Below, piece after piece: positions 20,544 to 33,343 of a DNA stretch of 33,343 bases (the stretch's first letter is position 1; each line of letters starts with the position of its first letter). The position numbers were made by a program, and so were the translations under genes. The notes under the pieces were generated by a model. That model had not been told where the DNA came from. It did no database searches and saw nothing but the letters and a program-made list of their open reading frames with translations. The stretch comes from a virus. The DNA lies in the IMG/VR virus record IMGVR_UViG_3300006802_000060, positions 1 through 33,343 of that record; one strand, written 5' to 3'.

Positions 20544-20553
20544 TTGACCTCCC

Positions 20554-20595
20554 ATGTACCATCATGTTGTCCTATGTACCATGGTGTGCTACCAT
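20554..20595. promoter_or_regulatory. GGTACA operator-like repeats in divergent promoter region
   Basis: Between the leftward gene at 20543 and the rightward gene at 20623, ATGTACCAT occurs at 20554-20562 and 20574-20582, exactly 20 bp apart. A third partial copy (TACCAT) is at 20590-20595. On the minus strand these read ATGGTACAT, the same core as the 10-bp phased arrays at 24460, 26441 and 32588. The placement fits control of both divergent units. Confidence 0.6.
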
Positions 20596-20622
20596 GGACT
20601 CATGGCTTTTACAAGAGGGTTT

Positions 20623-20871
20623 ATGACACAGCAGCTTCCCGAAGGCTACCTTACTGCCAAGCAGCTTGCACAGTGCCTAAAAATATCAAAAGGTACACTA
20701 GAAAACCTCTGTCGCCGTGGCTTGCCTCGGATAAAAATTGGGAAGGCACGCCGGTTTTTGCTGTCTGAGGTTCAAGTGTGGCTAAGGCAGCTTGAGGCAG
20801 AGGCGTTAGAGCAGCGGCGGCTTGAAGATGAGCTTAACGAGGAGTTTGAGGACACTGACCATGTGGCGTAA
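20623..20871 (+). CDS. Excisionase/MerR-type helix-turn-helix protein
   Basis: 82 residues from ATG 20623 (AGAGGG just upstream; ATG 20602 is an alternative adding seven residues). Residues 9-58 form an HTH_17-type winged helix: YLTAKQLAQCLKISKGTLEN, then RRGLPRIKIGKARRFLLSEVQVWL. The rest is an acidic helix (LEAEALEQRRLEDELNEEFED). No integrase is present, so it is more likely a small transcription regulator or recombination-directionality relic than an excisionase. It is first gene of a three-gene rightward cluster, next to the phased repeats at 20554-20595, which it could bind. Confidence 0.8.
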   Translation: MTQQLPEGYLTAKQLAQCLKISKGTLENLCRRGLPRIKIGKARRFLLSEVQVWLRQLEAEALEQRRLEDELNEEFEDTDHVA

Positions 20872-22563: not shown

Positions 22564-22827
22564 TTATGTTTTTTCGTGGTCAAACAATTCTTCAATCGAC
22601 TGCTCAAGCCACCGGATGCCGTCAAGCTGCCCTTTGGCAAACACTGACTTGTCCTCTGCCAGGAGCTTCGACAGCCGCTCCGACTCCTGCGTAATAAAAG
22701 AGCGCAGCGCGTAAGCTCCCTGCTTGAACGCTGCGCGACGAAGCTCTAAAACCTCTTTTTGAGTTAGCTTGCGGCTTCTTCCACGATGCAGCTTGTGAGC
22801 CGCTTTAGTCTTATCGGACTTTTCCAC
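22564..22827 (-). CDS. Small basic helical protein coupled to RecT, unknown function
   Basis: 87 residues, start GTG 22827 inside the end of the RecT/Bet gene (64-base overlap, different frame). The N-terminus is basic (KTKAAHKLHRGRSRKLTQKE). The remainder is a long amphipathic helix (QESERLSKLLAEDKSVFAKG) ending in an acidic tail. The tight overlap suggests coordinated expression with the annealing protein. No family is recognised. The downstream HNH gene begins one base after its stop. Confidence 0.65.
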   Translation of the reverse strand: MEKSDKTKAAHKLHRGRSRKLTQKEVLELRRAAFKQGAYALRSFITQESERLSKLLAEDKSVFAKGQLDGIRWLEQSIEELFDHEKT

Positions 22828-23594
22828 AGGTTTTCCCCGACTTCCTTAGCGCAGTTTTCGGCAAGGTACGCTTTGGCTTTGTCCTTGGCTTCGTTTTCAA
22901 GACTGCCGATGTTGTAGGTCGTTTCTTTTGCTTTGGATTCCCAGGGAAGTTCGTCGTCATCACTAGGACGCGACTCTTTAGCCACTCTCGCCTTAACCTC
23001 GCCCGTCTCAAGTTCATCAACCTGCGCTTCAACCGCAGCGCGATTGCTAGGAGCACCGTTAAAAGCACCGCGCTCAACCCGAGGACCATTCCGACCGACA
23101 GCAGCACTTGAGAACTCACTTGGCATCTCCTCTTGCGTATATAATCCGCCTAACTCATTAACAAATGCTTCGCGTAACGCTAGGCTCTTTGCACACTTTG
23201 ACAACATGATGGACGGCATTGTCTTCCAGATAGGAGTTCCCTTGCCGTACTCTGCCAGGTAAGCCGTGGCAACCGACGGAAAACGCCTGTCTTTGCGATA
23301 GACCTTCACCGTTGAACTCACTAGCTGCTTGCCATCCCATTCAAGGCTTACTTCCATGCCGTCAAACTGCGGGTGAGCGTTGGCGATCTTTAAGAAGCCG
23401 TTGATCCCCGTCATTAGCTGCAAGCGCCCACCCGCTTTTATAGCCCATATCTCTTTCAAAGCCGGATTGAGTCCCGTTGCCCGACACATCTCTGCAAAGA
23501 GCGCAAACTCTGCGTTTGTCAGCCCAGGCGCTACAGTCTCCCGCAACGCTGTCAGCATCTCCGTGTTGTCTACTTTTGCTACTTCGTTTGTCAT
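22764..23594 (-). CDS. bet: RecT/Bet-family single-strand DNA annealing protein
   Basis: 276 residues. The first ~160 match the Redbeta/RecT group: EFALFAEMCRATGLNPALKE, IWAIKAGGRLQLMTGINGF, AHPQFDGMEVSLEWDG, then VYRKDRRFPSVATAYLAEY and MLSKCAKSLALREAFVNELG. The enzyme anneals complementary strands during recombination or end joining. The tail is variable and includes DDDELPWES, similar to the acidic SSB C-terminal motif, perhaps a partner-binding site. ATG 23594 has GGGAG eight bases upstream. No lambda Exo or RecE-type exonuclease lies beside it; the VRR-NUC gene at 19203 could be the nuclease partner. The symbol is given for family membership. Confidence 0.85.
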   Translation of the reverse strand: MTNEVAKVDNTEMLTALRETVAPGLTNAEFALFAEMCRATGLNPALKEIWAIKAGGRLQLMTGINGFLKIANAHPQFDGMEVSLEWDGKQLVSSTVKVYRKDRRFPSVATAYLAEYGKGTPIWKTMPSIMLSKCAKSLALREAFVNELGGLYTQEEMPSEFSSAAVGRNGPRVERGAFNGAPSNRAAVEAQVDELETGEVKARVAKESRPSDDDELPWESKAKETTYNIGSLENEAKDKAKAYLAENCAKEVGENLWKSPIRLKRLTSCIVEEAAS

Positions 23595-23608: not shown

Positions 23609-24040
23609 CTAGTCATTTAAGATTAAGAACGCCTGGAGAGCCTCAAGCCCCAAGGCGTTCACCGTTACGTGCCGCTTTTCTGCCAGCTTGTGCAGCTTGC
23701 CAGCAACACTCTTTGGCACATCGTGAAACGTCATGCTCTGCACACGCAGTTCCTCGCGGCGCTGCGCCTGAGCTTCCAAATGCTTATTGCGCTGGTAGCA
23801 CTTCTTTTGCATCCGCGCTTGGCAATCGCGGCAATAGTATTGCAGCCCGTCCTGCGATCTTGAGAGCTTGTTAAACTCCTGTACTGGCTTGGTTTTGTCG
23901 CACTTTGGACAAAATTTTATTTTGCCGTCAGGCGATAAGGTCTTTGGCTTTCTGCCAGGTCGTCCCCGTGGCTTTAGCTGCGGTTTCGTAGCCTCCTTCG
24001 GCGTTTCCACCGGCTTCAGTAACCAACTAAACATTTTCAT
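23609..24040 (-). CDS. AT-hook, zinc-ribbon and ribbon-helix-helix DNA-binding protein
   Basis: 143 residues with three apparent nucleic-acid-binding parts. There is an AT-hook-like KPRGRPGRKPK (about 23-33). A zinc motif follows, FCPKCDKTKPVQEF then YYCRDCQARMQKK (two CxxC pairs, about 43-75). The C-terminal ribbon-helix-helix-like domain reads MTFHDVPKSVAGKLHKLAEK then VTVNALGLEALQAFL. AGGAG six bases before ATG 24040 supports the start. It ends 14 bases before the RecT start. RHH proteins often bind short tandem operators, so it is a candidate binder of the 10-bp phased RGTACA arrays. That link is inference. Confidence 0.65.
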   Translation of the reverse strand: MKMFSWLLKPVETPKEATKPQLKPRGRPGRKPKTLSPDGKIKFCPKCDKTKPVQEFNKLSRSQDGLQYYCRDCQARMQKKCYQRNKHLEAQAQRREELRVQSMTFHDVPKSVAGKLHKLAEKRHVTVNALGLEALQAFLILND

Positions 24041-24070: not shown

Positions 24071-24400
24071 TCACAAGCTGTTTCCGTCGTCATCGACTAT
24101 CTCAGTCAACCGCGCAAACCGCTTGTCCTCTAACTCAAAACTTAAAACATAGACGCCGCTATCATCAGCCATCACAACCTCAAACTCATCCTCGACAAAA
24201 GGGCTCTCCTCAACTACTGGTCCCCCTCCGTCGCTCCGACGCCTTAGCAGCTCCGCCAGCGCCACTATGCTGTCCAGTGAGCTGCGACCCGTTTGGCAGC
24301 TCAGGCGCTCCAGCAGATAATGGGTGTCCTCATCGTCAGAGCCAGACATCACGTTGACTACCCGATACTTGTAGCCCTTCGTCTTGTCAAAGTAGCCCAT
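24071..24400 (-). CDS. Acidic protein of unknown function
   Basis: 109 residues from ATG 24400 (GGAG six bases upstream). Longer in-frame starts at ATG 24436 (after GAGGGG) and GTG 24448 are possible. The N-terminus MGYFDKTKGYKYRVVNVMSG starts a compact domain. The middle is a helix with RSSLDSIVALAELLRRRS. The C-terminal half is strongly acidic (VVEESPFVEDEFEVVMADD). It is first gene downstream of the phased array at 24460-24495. Function unknown. Confidence 0.6.
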   Translation of the reverse strand: MGYFDKTKGYKYRVVNVMSGSDDEDTHYLLERLSCQTGRSSLDSIVALAELLRRRSDGGGPVVEESPFVEDEFEVVMADDSGVYVLSFELEDKRFARLTEIVDDDGNSL

Positions 24401-24459
24401 CCTGCTCTCCGTCCACCGCAAAGTTCGTGATCTCATCGGTCCCCTCACAAGGTCTCATC

Positions 24460-24495
24460 GGTACATGACGGTACACAGAAGTACATTGTGGTGCA
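24460..24495 (+). promoter_or_regulatory. Four-copy 10-bp phased RGTACA array
   Basis: GGTACA (24460), GGTACA (24470), AGTACA (24480) and GGTGCA (24490) recur at exactly 10-bp steps, one per helical turn on the same face. The array lies just upstream of the leftward operon that starts at 24400 and includes the RHH-type protein and RecT, so it could be that operon's operator. Confidence 0.75.
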
Positions 24496-24615
24496 AGTAG
24501 CAAAAGCCAAAAACCAAAACGAAAAAATTCGATTAAGTCGGTTTTAAACAAGTGAGGCACTCCAAAACAGTGACTTAGACGGATCCTTGGTCGAGTATAC
24601 CCCGACCATGGCGGC

Positions 24616-24802: not shown

Positions 24803-25150
24803 CTAATCCAGAGGGTTATCGATTATCATGGGCTGACCCAGAGCATTATTGGGCACGATGGTAGTCACTGTGCTTTCGTCGGTAACGTCTCGCCCGTAAA
24901 TTTGGCTCAGTAGCGGATTAGGTCGACGTTTCGTTTCAGTGACTACGCTGTAGCCCGTTTGCCAGCCAGCAGAGTTCACCTGACCATTCGGGATCGGTAA
25001 CGCTGGTCCAAACGGAGGGCTCACAGGCACAACCTGACCAAAGCCATACCGGCTGGGGCGGCTTGGCTGGTCAATAGGATTGTACTCTTCCCATATCTGC
25101 GCACTCGCTACGCTCGGAAGCATGATTAACGCTAGAATTGTTTTACGCAT
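24803..25150 (-). CDS. Exported protein of unknown function
   Basis: 115 residues with a clear signal peptide (MRKTILALIMLPSVASAQ, Ala-x-Ala cut near 17). The mature part is Pro/Asn/Gly-rich (VSPPFGPALPIPNGQ) and ends in IIDNPLD. It has no Cys or membrane segment. It is preceded by the GACTAG-AGAGGTGA leader shared with the next two upstream genes, giving a good SD. A periplasmic or secreted phage protein outside the lysis cassette could act in superinfection exclusion or host-envelope change, which is speculation. Confidence 0.65.
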   Translation of the reverse strand: MRKTILALIMLPSVASAQIWEEYNPIDQPSRPSRYGFGQVVPVSPPFGPALPIPNGQVNSAGWQTGYSVVTETKRRPNPLLSQIYGRDVTDESTVTTIVPNNALGQPMIIDNPLD

Positions 25151-25170
25151 AAGTCACCTCTGCTAGTCGG

Positions 25171-25803
25171 TTACGGTTGCTTGTATAGATCTCGGTTGGA
25201 TCGGTCTCTAAGGTAGCTGAAAATCCGATCTAGCCGATTGTCTTTAACTTCGGGGTTAAATTTCTCATAAACCCTTTCCATTAAGCACAGATCTAGTTCG
25301 TAATCCCTACGTTCCTCCGTAATCACCTCGGTAGTCACGTAGGCTTCCAACAGAGTCCAGATCATGATCTGGTCCCACTCTGCAATCGGAGTTTCCAACC
25401 ACCTTTCCAGACTGTTAGGGTAGAAACTAACAAAGCCACTCCTACTCGAATGACGTTGCTTAATTTCCTCTGCCAGAACCTCCGTATCTGTTGCAGCAAA
25501 AATCCTAGCAACTTCCTCTTTTGGAACGTCCACTAGGATCTGGTCAGTTTCATAATTGTAGAACCTTGGGCTGTGTAGGGCTCGAAACGTTAGATCAATC
25601 TTAAAACGCCGACCAAACTCAGCAGCGTATAGTTCAGCGTATTTTTGGCAACACTTCGACCAGTCTATTGCTTCAAATAAACGCTGCGCAGTAATTCTCG
25701 GAAGCTCTCCGCAATCATTTCCGTAACATGATTCCAGAGTGTTCATAATCGCGTCATCATGTATGGAATGATAGAAGCCACTAAAAGGGATGTAACTTTT
25801 CAT
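25171..25803 (-). CDS. Conserved-looking phage protein of unknown function
   Basis: 210 residues, mixed alpha/beta, acidic. The N-terminus (IPFSGFYHSIHDDAI, with a later CYGNDCGELP) and the middle FYNYETDQILVDVPKEEV look like conserved motifs of a protein family found in phages, but I cannot assign a function. Four Cys are present with no zinc pattern. ATG 25803 has AGAGGTGA upstream in the repeated GACTAG leader. Its position in the early unit beside other small unknown genes makes a host-takeover or anti-defence role possible. Confidence 0.65.
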   Translation of the reverse strand: MKSYIPFSGFYHSIHDDAIMNTLESCYGNDCGELPRITAQRLFEAIDWSKCCQKYAELYAAEFGRRFKIDLTFRALHSPRFYNYETDQILVDVPKEEVARIFAATDTEVLAEEIKQRHSSRSGFVSFYPNSLERWLETPIAEWDQIMIWTLLEAYVTTEVITEERRDYELDLCLMERVYEKFNPEVKDNRLDRIFSYLRDRSNRDLYKQP

Positions 25804-25815
25804 AGATCACCTCTA

Positions 25816-26094
25816 CTAGTCATTATCAAAAGTTTTGGTCAAAAATCGGTGCGCCTGTTCCTCACTAGGAAACACCGTCCATTCCGTACAATCCAAGTAG
25901 CCCGGCATCGAGAGTCGAGCCCCATAGCCGTCTACGATTGAACAGCTTAAAAACTCGCCGTCAATAAATGGGCTGATTTCTTCCGCTGTTGGATGCAATG
26001 TTTTGCCGATTAGATCGAGCTGTATGGCTACCGTGCCTTGGCTCGTTTCTACTATGCACCAACGATCGTAAATCACCTGTTTTTGCATTGTCAT
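25816..26094 (-). CDS. Small protein with GYGARLSMPGYLDCTEW motif, unknown function
   Basis: 92 residues (ATG 26094, with a second ATG two codons on). The second half, FLSCSIVDGYGARLSMPGYL then DCTEWTVFPSEEQAHRFL, resembles a motif seen in small phage proteins of unknown role. It ends FDND with a TAG that is part of the GACTAG leader of the next gene. It is probably co-expressed with the gene at 25171. No enzymatic motif. Confidence 0.65.
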   Translation of the reverse strand: MTMQKQVIYDRWCIVETSQGTVAIQLDLIGKTLHPTAEEISPFIDGEFLSCSIVDGYGARLSMPGYLDCTEWTVFPSEEQAHRFLTKTFDND

Positions 26095-26172
26095 GTATCA
26101 CCTCTGCTAGTCATTCGGGCTGAATTGCCCAGCGGGCACTCCGTAGAGTACCCTGGGGGCTATTCTGCTACT

Positions 26173-26346
26173 TTAGCGTGCAATCGCGGCGTGGGTGTAT
26201 TTGCATGGTTTGAATACGTCAGCAATGTAATCGCGTACAGCTGCGTTAAATTCAACTTCCCTGGTGCACGCAAACTCTAGAAGTTGATCGTTGCAAGCCC
26301 GCTCGTAGTGTCCGAGTGTGCTGTAAAGGTCTTGCTTAGTTGACAT
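26173..26346 (-). CDS. 57-residue protein, unknown function
   Basis: A short gene beginning MSTKQDLYSTLGHYERACND and ending KYTHAAIAR. ATG 26346 has CGGAG about eight bases upstream, in a leader carrying GACTAG like its neighbours. The product is helical and has three Cys. After its TAA the same frame stays open for 21 codons (ending GVPAGQFSPND-TAG at 26107), so the stop may have shortened a longer ancestral gene. First gene of the leftward early unit, facing the dyad array. Confidence 0.6.
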   Translation of the reverse strand: MSTKQDLYSTLGHYERACNDQLLEFACTREVEFNAAVRDYIADVFKPCKYTHAAIAR

Positions 26347-26440
26347 GGTTTTCTCCGTTGCTAGTGCTAGTCATTCTGTTCATTGTACAGCGGTCTGCAT
26401 TGTTGCGCTACTGAGTTTCGCGTCTAAATGCATACCACCA

Positions 26441-26512
26441 TGGTACACGATGGTACACTATGGTACAAGTAGGAAATGAACCAGGATGTACTGCCATGTA
26501 CTGTCATGTACT
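26441..26512. promoter_or_regulatory. Six-core dyad-symmetric array of 10-bp phased GTACA repeats
   Basis: TGGTACA at 26441, 26451 and 26461 is followed by the inverted form ATGTACT at 26486, 26496 and 26506. The GTAC cores are centred 12.5, 22.5 and 32.5 bp either side of 26477, an exact dyad. The array fills the gap between the divergent genes at 26346 (leftward) and 26568 (rightward). It is the most regular copy of the repeat family also seen at 20554, 24460 and 32588. Confidence 0.85.
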
Positions 26513-26567
26513 CCTGTGATCAGTAGGTTATGAAAAGTGTTGTCTTAACACAGGGTTATAGAATAAG

Positions 26568-26849
26568 ATGCCGAGTATGACGTTATGGGTGGGAACGAAC
26601 GGATTTCGCAGCGTAATCGCTAAACGTGAGCAAGGTTTACTGTATCACTTGCTACGCTCGAAAAAGGGATGGTCGCAGCGTCAGGTGGGAGAGCTGCTTG
26701 GCGTTAGCCAGCCTTCTATTGCGCATCGTGAGCGTAACAGAGCCACGTATAGCTGCTCAGAGCTGGTCATGCTCAAGACCATGTTTGGTCTAAGCGTCGA
26801 GGAGCTGTGGTCGGTGATCGAGACTATAGCTAACCATCCGAAATTATAG
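26568..26849 (+). CDS. XRE/Cro-type helix-turn-helix regulator
   Basis: 93 residues. Residues about 24-80 form an HTH_3 domain: LLYHLLRSKKGWSQRQVGEL, LGVSQPSIAHRERNR, then LVMLKTMFGLSVEELWSV. SQRQVGELLGVSQPSIAHRE is the canonical helix-turn-helix. It has no dimerisation or cleavage domain, so it is Cro-like rather than CI-like. No strong SD precedes ATG 26568; ATG 26577 is an alternative. It is transcribed away from the dyad array at 26441-26512. Its 3' side is followed by a second repeat family. A role in early/late switching is inferred. Confidence 0.8.
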   Translation: MPSMTLWVGTNGFRSVIAKREQGLLYHLLRSKKGWSQRQVGELLGVSQPSIAHRERNRATYSCSELVMLKTMFGLSVEELWSVIETIANHPKL

Positions 26850-26951
26850 GCATTACCTACCTAACATGCTGGTATCATTAGGCATTACTTACCTTACGAG
26901 AATTAGAAAACTAGTTAGGTAACATGCGTAATATATTCACCACGTTAGGTA
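26847..26951. promoter_or_regulatory. TACCTAAC/GTTAGGTA repeat cluster upstream of terminase
   Basis: TAGGCATTACCTACCT (26847-26862) repeats with one mismatch at 26879-26894, 32 bp on. The embedded TACCTAAC (26858) and TACCTTAC (26890) face inverted GTTAGGTA at 26914 and 26944. The cluster lies between the XRE gene and the small terminase and is unrelated to the RGTACA arrays. It could be a second operator or a terminase recognition (pac/cos) region. Confidence 0.6.
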
Positions 26952-27140
26952 GCCCTGTGGTCCAGGCGAAAAAAGAAAACGAGATCCGTTTTGACCTTCG
27001 ATTCCTAAACGATTCCACGGATTTACCAGCCGTGGCGCAGGTTTTCGAATTCGTTTTCAATTTGAAAGCGCCGGGCGGTGGAGCAGACCGCGCACCCCAC
27101 ATTCCACATAAAAATCCCAACCCTCCCCTAAAACACCGTT
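26952..27140. other. Leader region of the terminase operon, no clear gene
   Basis: A 74-codon frame (26924-27148) covers this gap but begins inside a repeat, has no SD and resembles no protein. The stretch contains GC-rich GCGCCGGGCGGTGGAGC near 27067 and a C-rich run before the terminase start. Small-terminase leaders often carry the packaging start site, which is a guess here. Confidence 0.4.
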
Positions 27141-32587: not shown

Positions 32588-32613
32588 AGTGTATCATGGT
32601 ACAAGCAGGTGCA
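32588..32613 (+). promoter_or_regulatory. Phased RGTACA repeats inside the late operon
   Basis: AGTGTA (32588), GGTACA (32598) and GGTGCA (32608) step by exactly 10 bp in the short gap between the portal and the gene at 32641. The first copy is degenerate. TTGCAAC also occurs at 32578 and 32626, with GTGCAAC at 32609. It belongs with the arrays at 24460 and 26441 but sits between late genes, not at an obvious early promoter. Confidence 0.55.
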
Positions 32614-32640
32614 ACCTGACTCATTTTGCAACAATTCAGT

Positions 32641-32958: not shown

Positions 32959-33343
32959 CCAGGAGCCGGTTGTCGAAGCAGCAGAAACAGAAGTTGTAGC
33001 AGAGCGTGAGCAGGACACGCGCAGTATCCGTGATGTGCTTAGCCAGCACCTAGATCAAGAAAAGCAAGTTACCGAAAGCCCTGCTGTTCCCGCAGGTGAG
33101 GCAACTCCAGCAGCAACGCCAGCAGAGGCAACGCCGCCAGCAGTGGATCGTGTGCCGCTTGTGCCACCTGCTGACATGAACAAGCAGGAAAAGGACGCAT
33201 TTCTAAACCCTACGCCTGACAACGCTCACATCTTGCAACAGTACATGAATCGTAGGGCGTATGAGACGCGCAGCGATTACCAGCGCAAGATGCAAGAAGT
33301 CGAGCAGCTTAAGCAGCAGACTTCTGGCGTTTATGATGTGCTA
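32951..33343 (+). CDS. Putative head scaffolding protein, N-terminal part (continues at 1)
   Basis: ATG 32951 starts a 343-residue gene that passes through the 123-bp terminal overlap and ends at 762. The first 90 residues, found only here, are acidic and Pro/Ala/Thr-rich (EATPAATPAEATPPA), probably disordered. The next part begins the helical region described at 1-762. The start overlaps the stop of the previous gene. Confidence 0.7.
   Translation, partial: MDSQEPVVEAAETEVVAEREQDTRSIRDVLSQHLDQEKQVTESPAVPAGEATPAATPAEATPPAVDRVPLVPPADMNKQEKDAFLNPTPDNAHILQQYMNRRAYETRSDYQRKMQEVEQLKQQTSGVYDVL
33221..33343. repeat. Right copy of the 123-bp terminal overlap
   Basis: Identical to 1-123; see that entry for interpretation. 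The scaffold frame is continuous at both copies. Confidence 0.95.

Follow-up and report, generated by a model that had tools for sequence, protein, structure and literature searches.

The intergenic array at 26441-26512 of the phage genome analysed here (the window, 33,343 bases, which is the whole IMG/VR record) belongs to a set of at least four arrays of a directional 10-bp unit, consensus RGTRYA, lying upstream of three operon regions. In the reading we favour, and hold to be somewhat better than an even bet, the main array would be two back-to-back operators within this phage-wide set, to which the HTH_17 protein encoded at 20623-20871 binds head to tail, repressing the promoters. The main array would then act as an operator pair, one for each divergent gene; protomers would line up cooperatively on one side of each array, one to a 10-bp unit and all head to tail, and the resulting protein filament would cover the promoter region and so repress it. 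The targets would be the leftward genes at 26346 and 24448, the rightward XRE-led operon, and the HTH_17 gene itself. The identity of the binder, its head-to-tail mode, cooperativity, repression, and autoregulation are what we infer from sequence; taken together, the arrays most likely form a phage-wide, integrase-free, Apl-type repressor circuit.

Layout of the arrays

The window begins and ends with an exact 123-base direct repeat (1-123 and 33221-33343), so that it probably represents a complete and circularly closed phage genome of ~33.2 kb. Leftward genes span 26346 to ~18715 and include those for RecT (22764-23594), a VRR nuclease, and HNH; the first of them, immediately left of the array, is a 57-aa ORF with a good Shine-Dalgarno sequence (26173-26346, minus strand) that has no family match. 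The first gene to the right encodes a 93-aa XRE-family HTH protein (26568-26849, plus strand; Pfam HTH_3, 1.3e-6), a rival binder or a target of the arrays; after it come a 204-aa gene at the position of the small terminase, the terminase, and the portal. The initial annotation placed the array between divergent early genes; divergent they are, but "early" does not suit the right-hand gene, given the genes that come after it.

By direct reading, the intergenic array runs ATGGTACACG ATGGTACACT ATGGTACAAG TAGGAAATGAACCAGG ATGTACTGCC ATGTACTGTC ATGTACTCC, with GTAC starting at 26443, 26453, and 26463 on the left and at 26488, 26498, and 26508 on the right. The left array (26442-26471, plus strand; called by direct reading, PWM, and shuffles) consists of three 10-bp units, GGTACACGAT GGTACACTAT GGTACAAGTA, upstream of the leftward 57-aa gene, while the right array (26473-26512, minus strand; direct reading and PWM) consists of AGTACATGAC AGTACATGGC AGTACATCCT and a fourth, degenerate unit, GGTTCA (GGTTCATTTC), upstream of the rightward XRE gene. 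GTAC occurs 115 times in the window, and triples of it at period 10 occur three times, twice in the main array and once at 24461, compared with none in 400 dinucleotide-preserving shuffles of the window; no GTAC triple exists in the window at the remaining periods between 5 and 30. The main array is therefore not due to chance.

The midpoints of the six GTAC cores mirror about 26477 at offsets of 12.5, 22.5, and 32.5 bp, precisely as first described, although the exactness of this symmetry is automatic, because two equal 10-bp rows face each other. The accompanying claim that all sites lie on one helix face holds among the sites inside each half but fails across them: 25 bp separate the inner cores of the two halves, which at 10.5 bp per turn amounts to about 2.4 turns, and the halves therefore share no common face.

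A PWM built from the six main units, for which the maximum over 30 shuffles was 14.9, gives further matches of 29.3 at 24460-24489 and of 20.8 at 20571, a degenerate site. The former lies in a third array, GGTACATGAC GGTACACAGA AGTACATTGT GGTGCAAGTA (24460-24499, plus strand), upstream of the leftward operon that begins with a 125-aa ORF (24071-24448, minus strand, start possibly 24397). The latter lies in a fourth, degenerate array, AGCACACCAT GGTACATAGG ACAACATGAT GGTACATGGG (20551-20590, minus strand), perhaps with a fifth unit at 20591-20600, directly upstream of the HTH_17 gene. With a PWM from 32 units, the four top 4-unit matches were the arrays at 24460 and 20551 together with the right and left halves of the main array. 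A further site between the portal and the next gene (32588-32617, plus strand) scores 18.3, again compared with a shuffled maximum of 14.9, but is not conserved in relatives, which have only GTTACAAGC in common with it; because it stands above the shuffles yet lacks conservation, we keep it as a possible, weak candidate for a fifth array.

Two rules are shared by these arrays and their counterparts in related phages. Within each array, all units point in the same direction, away from the downstream gene (four arrays in the window, three in L160, and those of L120, L123, and L142), which is what would be expected of an asymmetric protein binding head to tail. In six arrays (26441 and 24459 of the window, both counterparts in L160, and those of L120 and L123), the promoter-distal unit reads CTTGYAC or GTTGCAC on the promoter strand; the unit terminates in GTRCAA[GC], placing TTGYAC, a -35-like hexamer, on that strand. 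This hexamer suggests that each array overlies a promoter; a simple sigma-70 scan called no promoter at the arrays.

Conservation in related phages

The terminase relatives (contigs L120-L199, 77-90% identity) mostly lack such arrays. The left triple is retained at the equivalent place in the closest of them, reading GGTGCACGAT GGTGTACGAT GGTGCAACTA in L160, AGTGCATGAT GGTGCACGAT AGTGCAACTA in L120, and GGTGTACGAT AGTGCATGAT AGTGCAACAA in L123, and a dedicated pattern scan of viral contigs found it in these three only. It has drifted to GTGCA or GTGTA by substitutions inside the units, with the 10-bp period constant; a one-turn repeat array is thus recognisable from sequence despite unit drift (GTACA to GTGCA). 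L160 also carries a 24459-type array (ACTACATGAC AGTACACATG ACTATATGGC AGTGCAAGAG) upstream of a gene 72% identical to 24071-24448, as well as a degenerate 20553-type array, and when its whole contig was ranked with the six-unit PWM, the sites orthologous to 26441 and 24459 came first.

The right inverted triple was not seen in L120, L123, or L160. Hence the search among related phages upheld only the left half of the array, and the "exact dyad", real as a geometric description, is not supported as a functional unit, since relatives retain the left triple alone; we take it instead to be two back-to-back operators, one per divergent gene. The right array, so far unique to this phage, has the least certain function. 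Near the equivalent locus, upstream of XRE homologues in several distant relatives (L165, L163, L176, and L167), there are TGTATACA-type palindromes (e.g., CACTGTATACAGT and ATGTATACATAG), which perhaps represent a different operator type.

Candidate binders of the arrays

Three phage products had been named as possible ligands (23609-24040, 20623-20871, and 26568-26849), and the second emerges as the best of them. It is an 82-aa HTH_17 protein, an excisionase/BldC-like winged HTH (20623-20871, plus strand), with PF12728 at 20647-20790 (1.4e-10, also 4.6e-12, the single copy in the genome) and a match to PHROG 66, "excisionase and transcriptional regulator" (2.3e-8). The fourth array stops ~33 bp ahead of its start and has counterparts in L160 and L142. 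L142 lacks an array at its XRE gene, yet the best PWM match in its 11.5-kb contig immediately precedes HTH_17, in the same orientation (AGTACATGTT ACTACACATC GTAACAAGTT ATAACAAGGA); its score of 17.0 is above the mean of 40 shuffled maxima (10.3, sd 3.3) but below the largest of them (22.3).

We also scored 10-bp self-similarity, among periods of 8-14, in the 150 bp upstream of homologues in the related phages, including those outside the GTAC clade. Period 10 was the best for 7 of the 11 distinct HTH_17 sequences, and five of the 11 (window, L160, L142, L162, and L134) gave p<=0.03 at that period, compared with 5/187 for four control genes together (Fisher 4e-5, or 3e-3 without the window and L160), a statistic that comprises 11 sequences, three of them significant outside the window and L160, and that was designed after HTH_17 had become the candidate. 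Changing the width, the number of units, or the length of upstream sequence left its direction intact, with 3 to 5 of 11 for HTH_17. Because 10-bp arrays precede HTH_17 homologues in relatives without other arrays, and because Apl, Xis, and BldC provide precedent, the 20623-20871 protein is most likely the ligand of the arrays.

A distinctly less probable alternative, though the most serious one, is that the arrays are operators of a ribbon-helix-helix (RHH) repressor, with one symmetric dimer per unit and neighbours one turn apart, as for CopG, MetJ, or omega. The repressor would be either the product of 23609-24040 (minus strand), a zinc ribbon (with endonuclease VII-like profile matches) fused to a putative CopG/Arc-like RHH C-terminus, or the RHH-like product of 24071-24448. 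The former sits in the operon behind the third array, and its C-terminus, modelled as helix-helix after an extended stretch, can be superposed on that of CopG with an rmsd of 0.8 A and a TM to target of 0.69-0.76, although the Foldseek matches to CopG and Arc had non-significant scores. For the latter, a homologue was found in L160 only, which bears arrays too, but its AlphaFold model is of such low confidence (pLDDT 44) that its fold search is meaningless. A symmetric dimer would fit the partial self-complementarity of the unit core, which reads GTAC in the window and GTRYAC in relatives; however, the units hold one direction and are asymmetric in their flanks, and a permutation test of two-fold unit symmetry gave p 0.18 over all 32 units (0.02 with relatives only). 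Nor does the 23609 gene of the window have an array-like signal immediately before it, and the upstream test gave 2/8 among homologues of the RHH gene, the window's gene not being one of the two. Our own initial preference for an RHH protein, prompted by the palindromic GTAC, was abandoned on the permutation test and the HTH_17 upstream test. The RHH alternative stays alive because omega (ParB) of pSM19035, an RHH protein, cooperatively binds short direct and inverted repeat arrays that overlap several promoters (PMC9499535), as the arrays here would do; omega sites differ, however, in being contiguous 7-bp heptads, in mixed orientations within one array, that serve also as a centromere. Across related phages, the C-terminal part of the 23609-24040 protein is highly variable.

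The XRE protein is unlikely to have the arrays as its operators and to act as an autoregulator beside the main one. Its gene begins 56 bp away from the right array and is retained across relatives, being present in 48/80 loci fetched with the terminase, and QP[ST] is common to the XRE recognition helices of the array-bearing clade; yet the majority of relatives carry the gene without an array, and from the window to L160 that helix has changed more than the sites have. The upstream test gave 6/46 for XRE homologues, three of the six being the GTAC clade. Single-domain XRE proteins, moreover, usually bind inverted repeats as dimers. Searches of viral contigs and phage BLAST with XRE homologues returned nothing useful.

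Binding by a host regulator, or by another phage protein outside those compared, is improbable. A terminase search of cellular genomes for a host found no relative, which leaves room for such a protein; against it, the arrays follow a single small clade of phages, diverging along with it, and the signal upstream of HTH_17 is specific to that gene.

The initial annotation had offered ParR-type partition alongside a tandem-operator regulator; a cooperative, phage-encoded regulator of the latter kind is the best fit we can propose, whereas partition is unsupported. ParR/parC of R1 and pSK41 does use repeats of the 10-bp class, in two groups in R1, with a cooperative RHH protein (PMC5016525), but the arrays here recur at three promoter regions with three or four units each, and Pfam and PHROGs scans, which covered some but not all of the structural ORFs, showed neither a ParM/ParA-like gene nor a replication initiator. 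Cumulative GC skew has a local minimum at ~26 kb (window ~25000-27000), at the divergence of transcription, and a replication origin may lie near the array. That the arrays themselves are iterons or architectural sites of an origin, or a packaging or partition site, is the least probable of the readings weighed here: iterons are tandem repeats, but the skew tracks gene strand and the arrays do not form one site.

Relation to known systems and to other viral contigs

RDFs such as phage 186 Apl, lambda Xis, and P2 Cox bind head to tail to repeats one turn apart. The arrays in the window differ from theirs in a spacing of exactly 10 bp, in a main site made of two inverted rows for divergent genes, and in the presence of four arrays at three regions in a genome with no integrase gene found. 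The initial annotation knew of no described phage operator of this form, which is true in part only: Apl operators, 6-bp direct repeats at a spacing of 10-11 bp between early promoters, are similar, and Apl represses both promoters and needs three adjacent operators (PMC7498355). The window likewise holds one-turn direct repeats in runs of at least three adjacent units, and it encodes a small excisionase-family HTH protein (PF12728, PHROG 66), their presumed cognate. An excisionase proper would serve an integrase and its attachment site; because neither the tyrosine nor the serine integrase domain (PF00589, PF00239) is found in the genome, we do not file this protein as an excisionase but only as part of a regulator and operator set of that architecture.

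At several promoters, BldC of Streptomyces binds direct repeats, which vary in number, cooperatively and head to tail (PMC5859096). It is an HTH_17-type winged HTH, as the candidate would be, although its repeats are of 9 bp rather than 10 bp and have an AT-rich consensus, and the sequence relation is weak (a profile of 11 HTH_17 homologues weakly reached the BldC structures, 6ama at E 0.057 and 6amk at E 0.69). RdfS, a group-17 HTH protein, forms filaments (PMC11963761). We accordingly file the arrays, by architecture, as a putative operator set of the RDF/Apl/BldC kind, to which the protein is assigned by Pfam domain only.

A bolder proposal, which we regard as speculative and rather doubtful, is that an integrase-less excisionase-type protein has come to control transcription globally in a lytic phage: two head-to-tail filaments starting from the inverted triples, on opposite strands, would extend toward one another, meet at 26477, and switch early leftward and late rightward transcription together at one concentration threshold. 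Phages without an integrase do carry HTH_17 "excisionase" genes for which no role is stated, and readable, evolving operators beside such a gene would permit a direct test of these proteins as global transcription regulators.

GTAC arrays are not confined to this clade. A scan of viral contigs for the RGTACA triple pattern gave at least 119 matches, and those listed are heterogeneous, comprising tandem repeats and sites behind tyrosine integrases, beside 650-730 aa genes, or beside a small-terminase gene; HTH_17 genes were found in only 11/50 unrelated contigs with GTAC arrays, a point against the HTH_17 reading. We dropped this collection as a pointer to the binder, as the neighbours differ from the regulators of the window. 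In five contigs, a 10-bp RGTACA triple lies 8-177 bp past the 3' end of a tyrosine integrase gene, identified by Pfam in L001, L024, L068, and L058 and by likeness of layout and size only in L098, so that arrays of this sort may represent attP arm or Xis sites. Families of GGTACA arrays adjoin genes of 650-730 aa (L008, L038, L053, L056, L010, and similar loci among the matches listed), and the L066 array is 10 bp away from a gene matching the Sf6 small terminase family.
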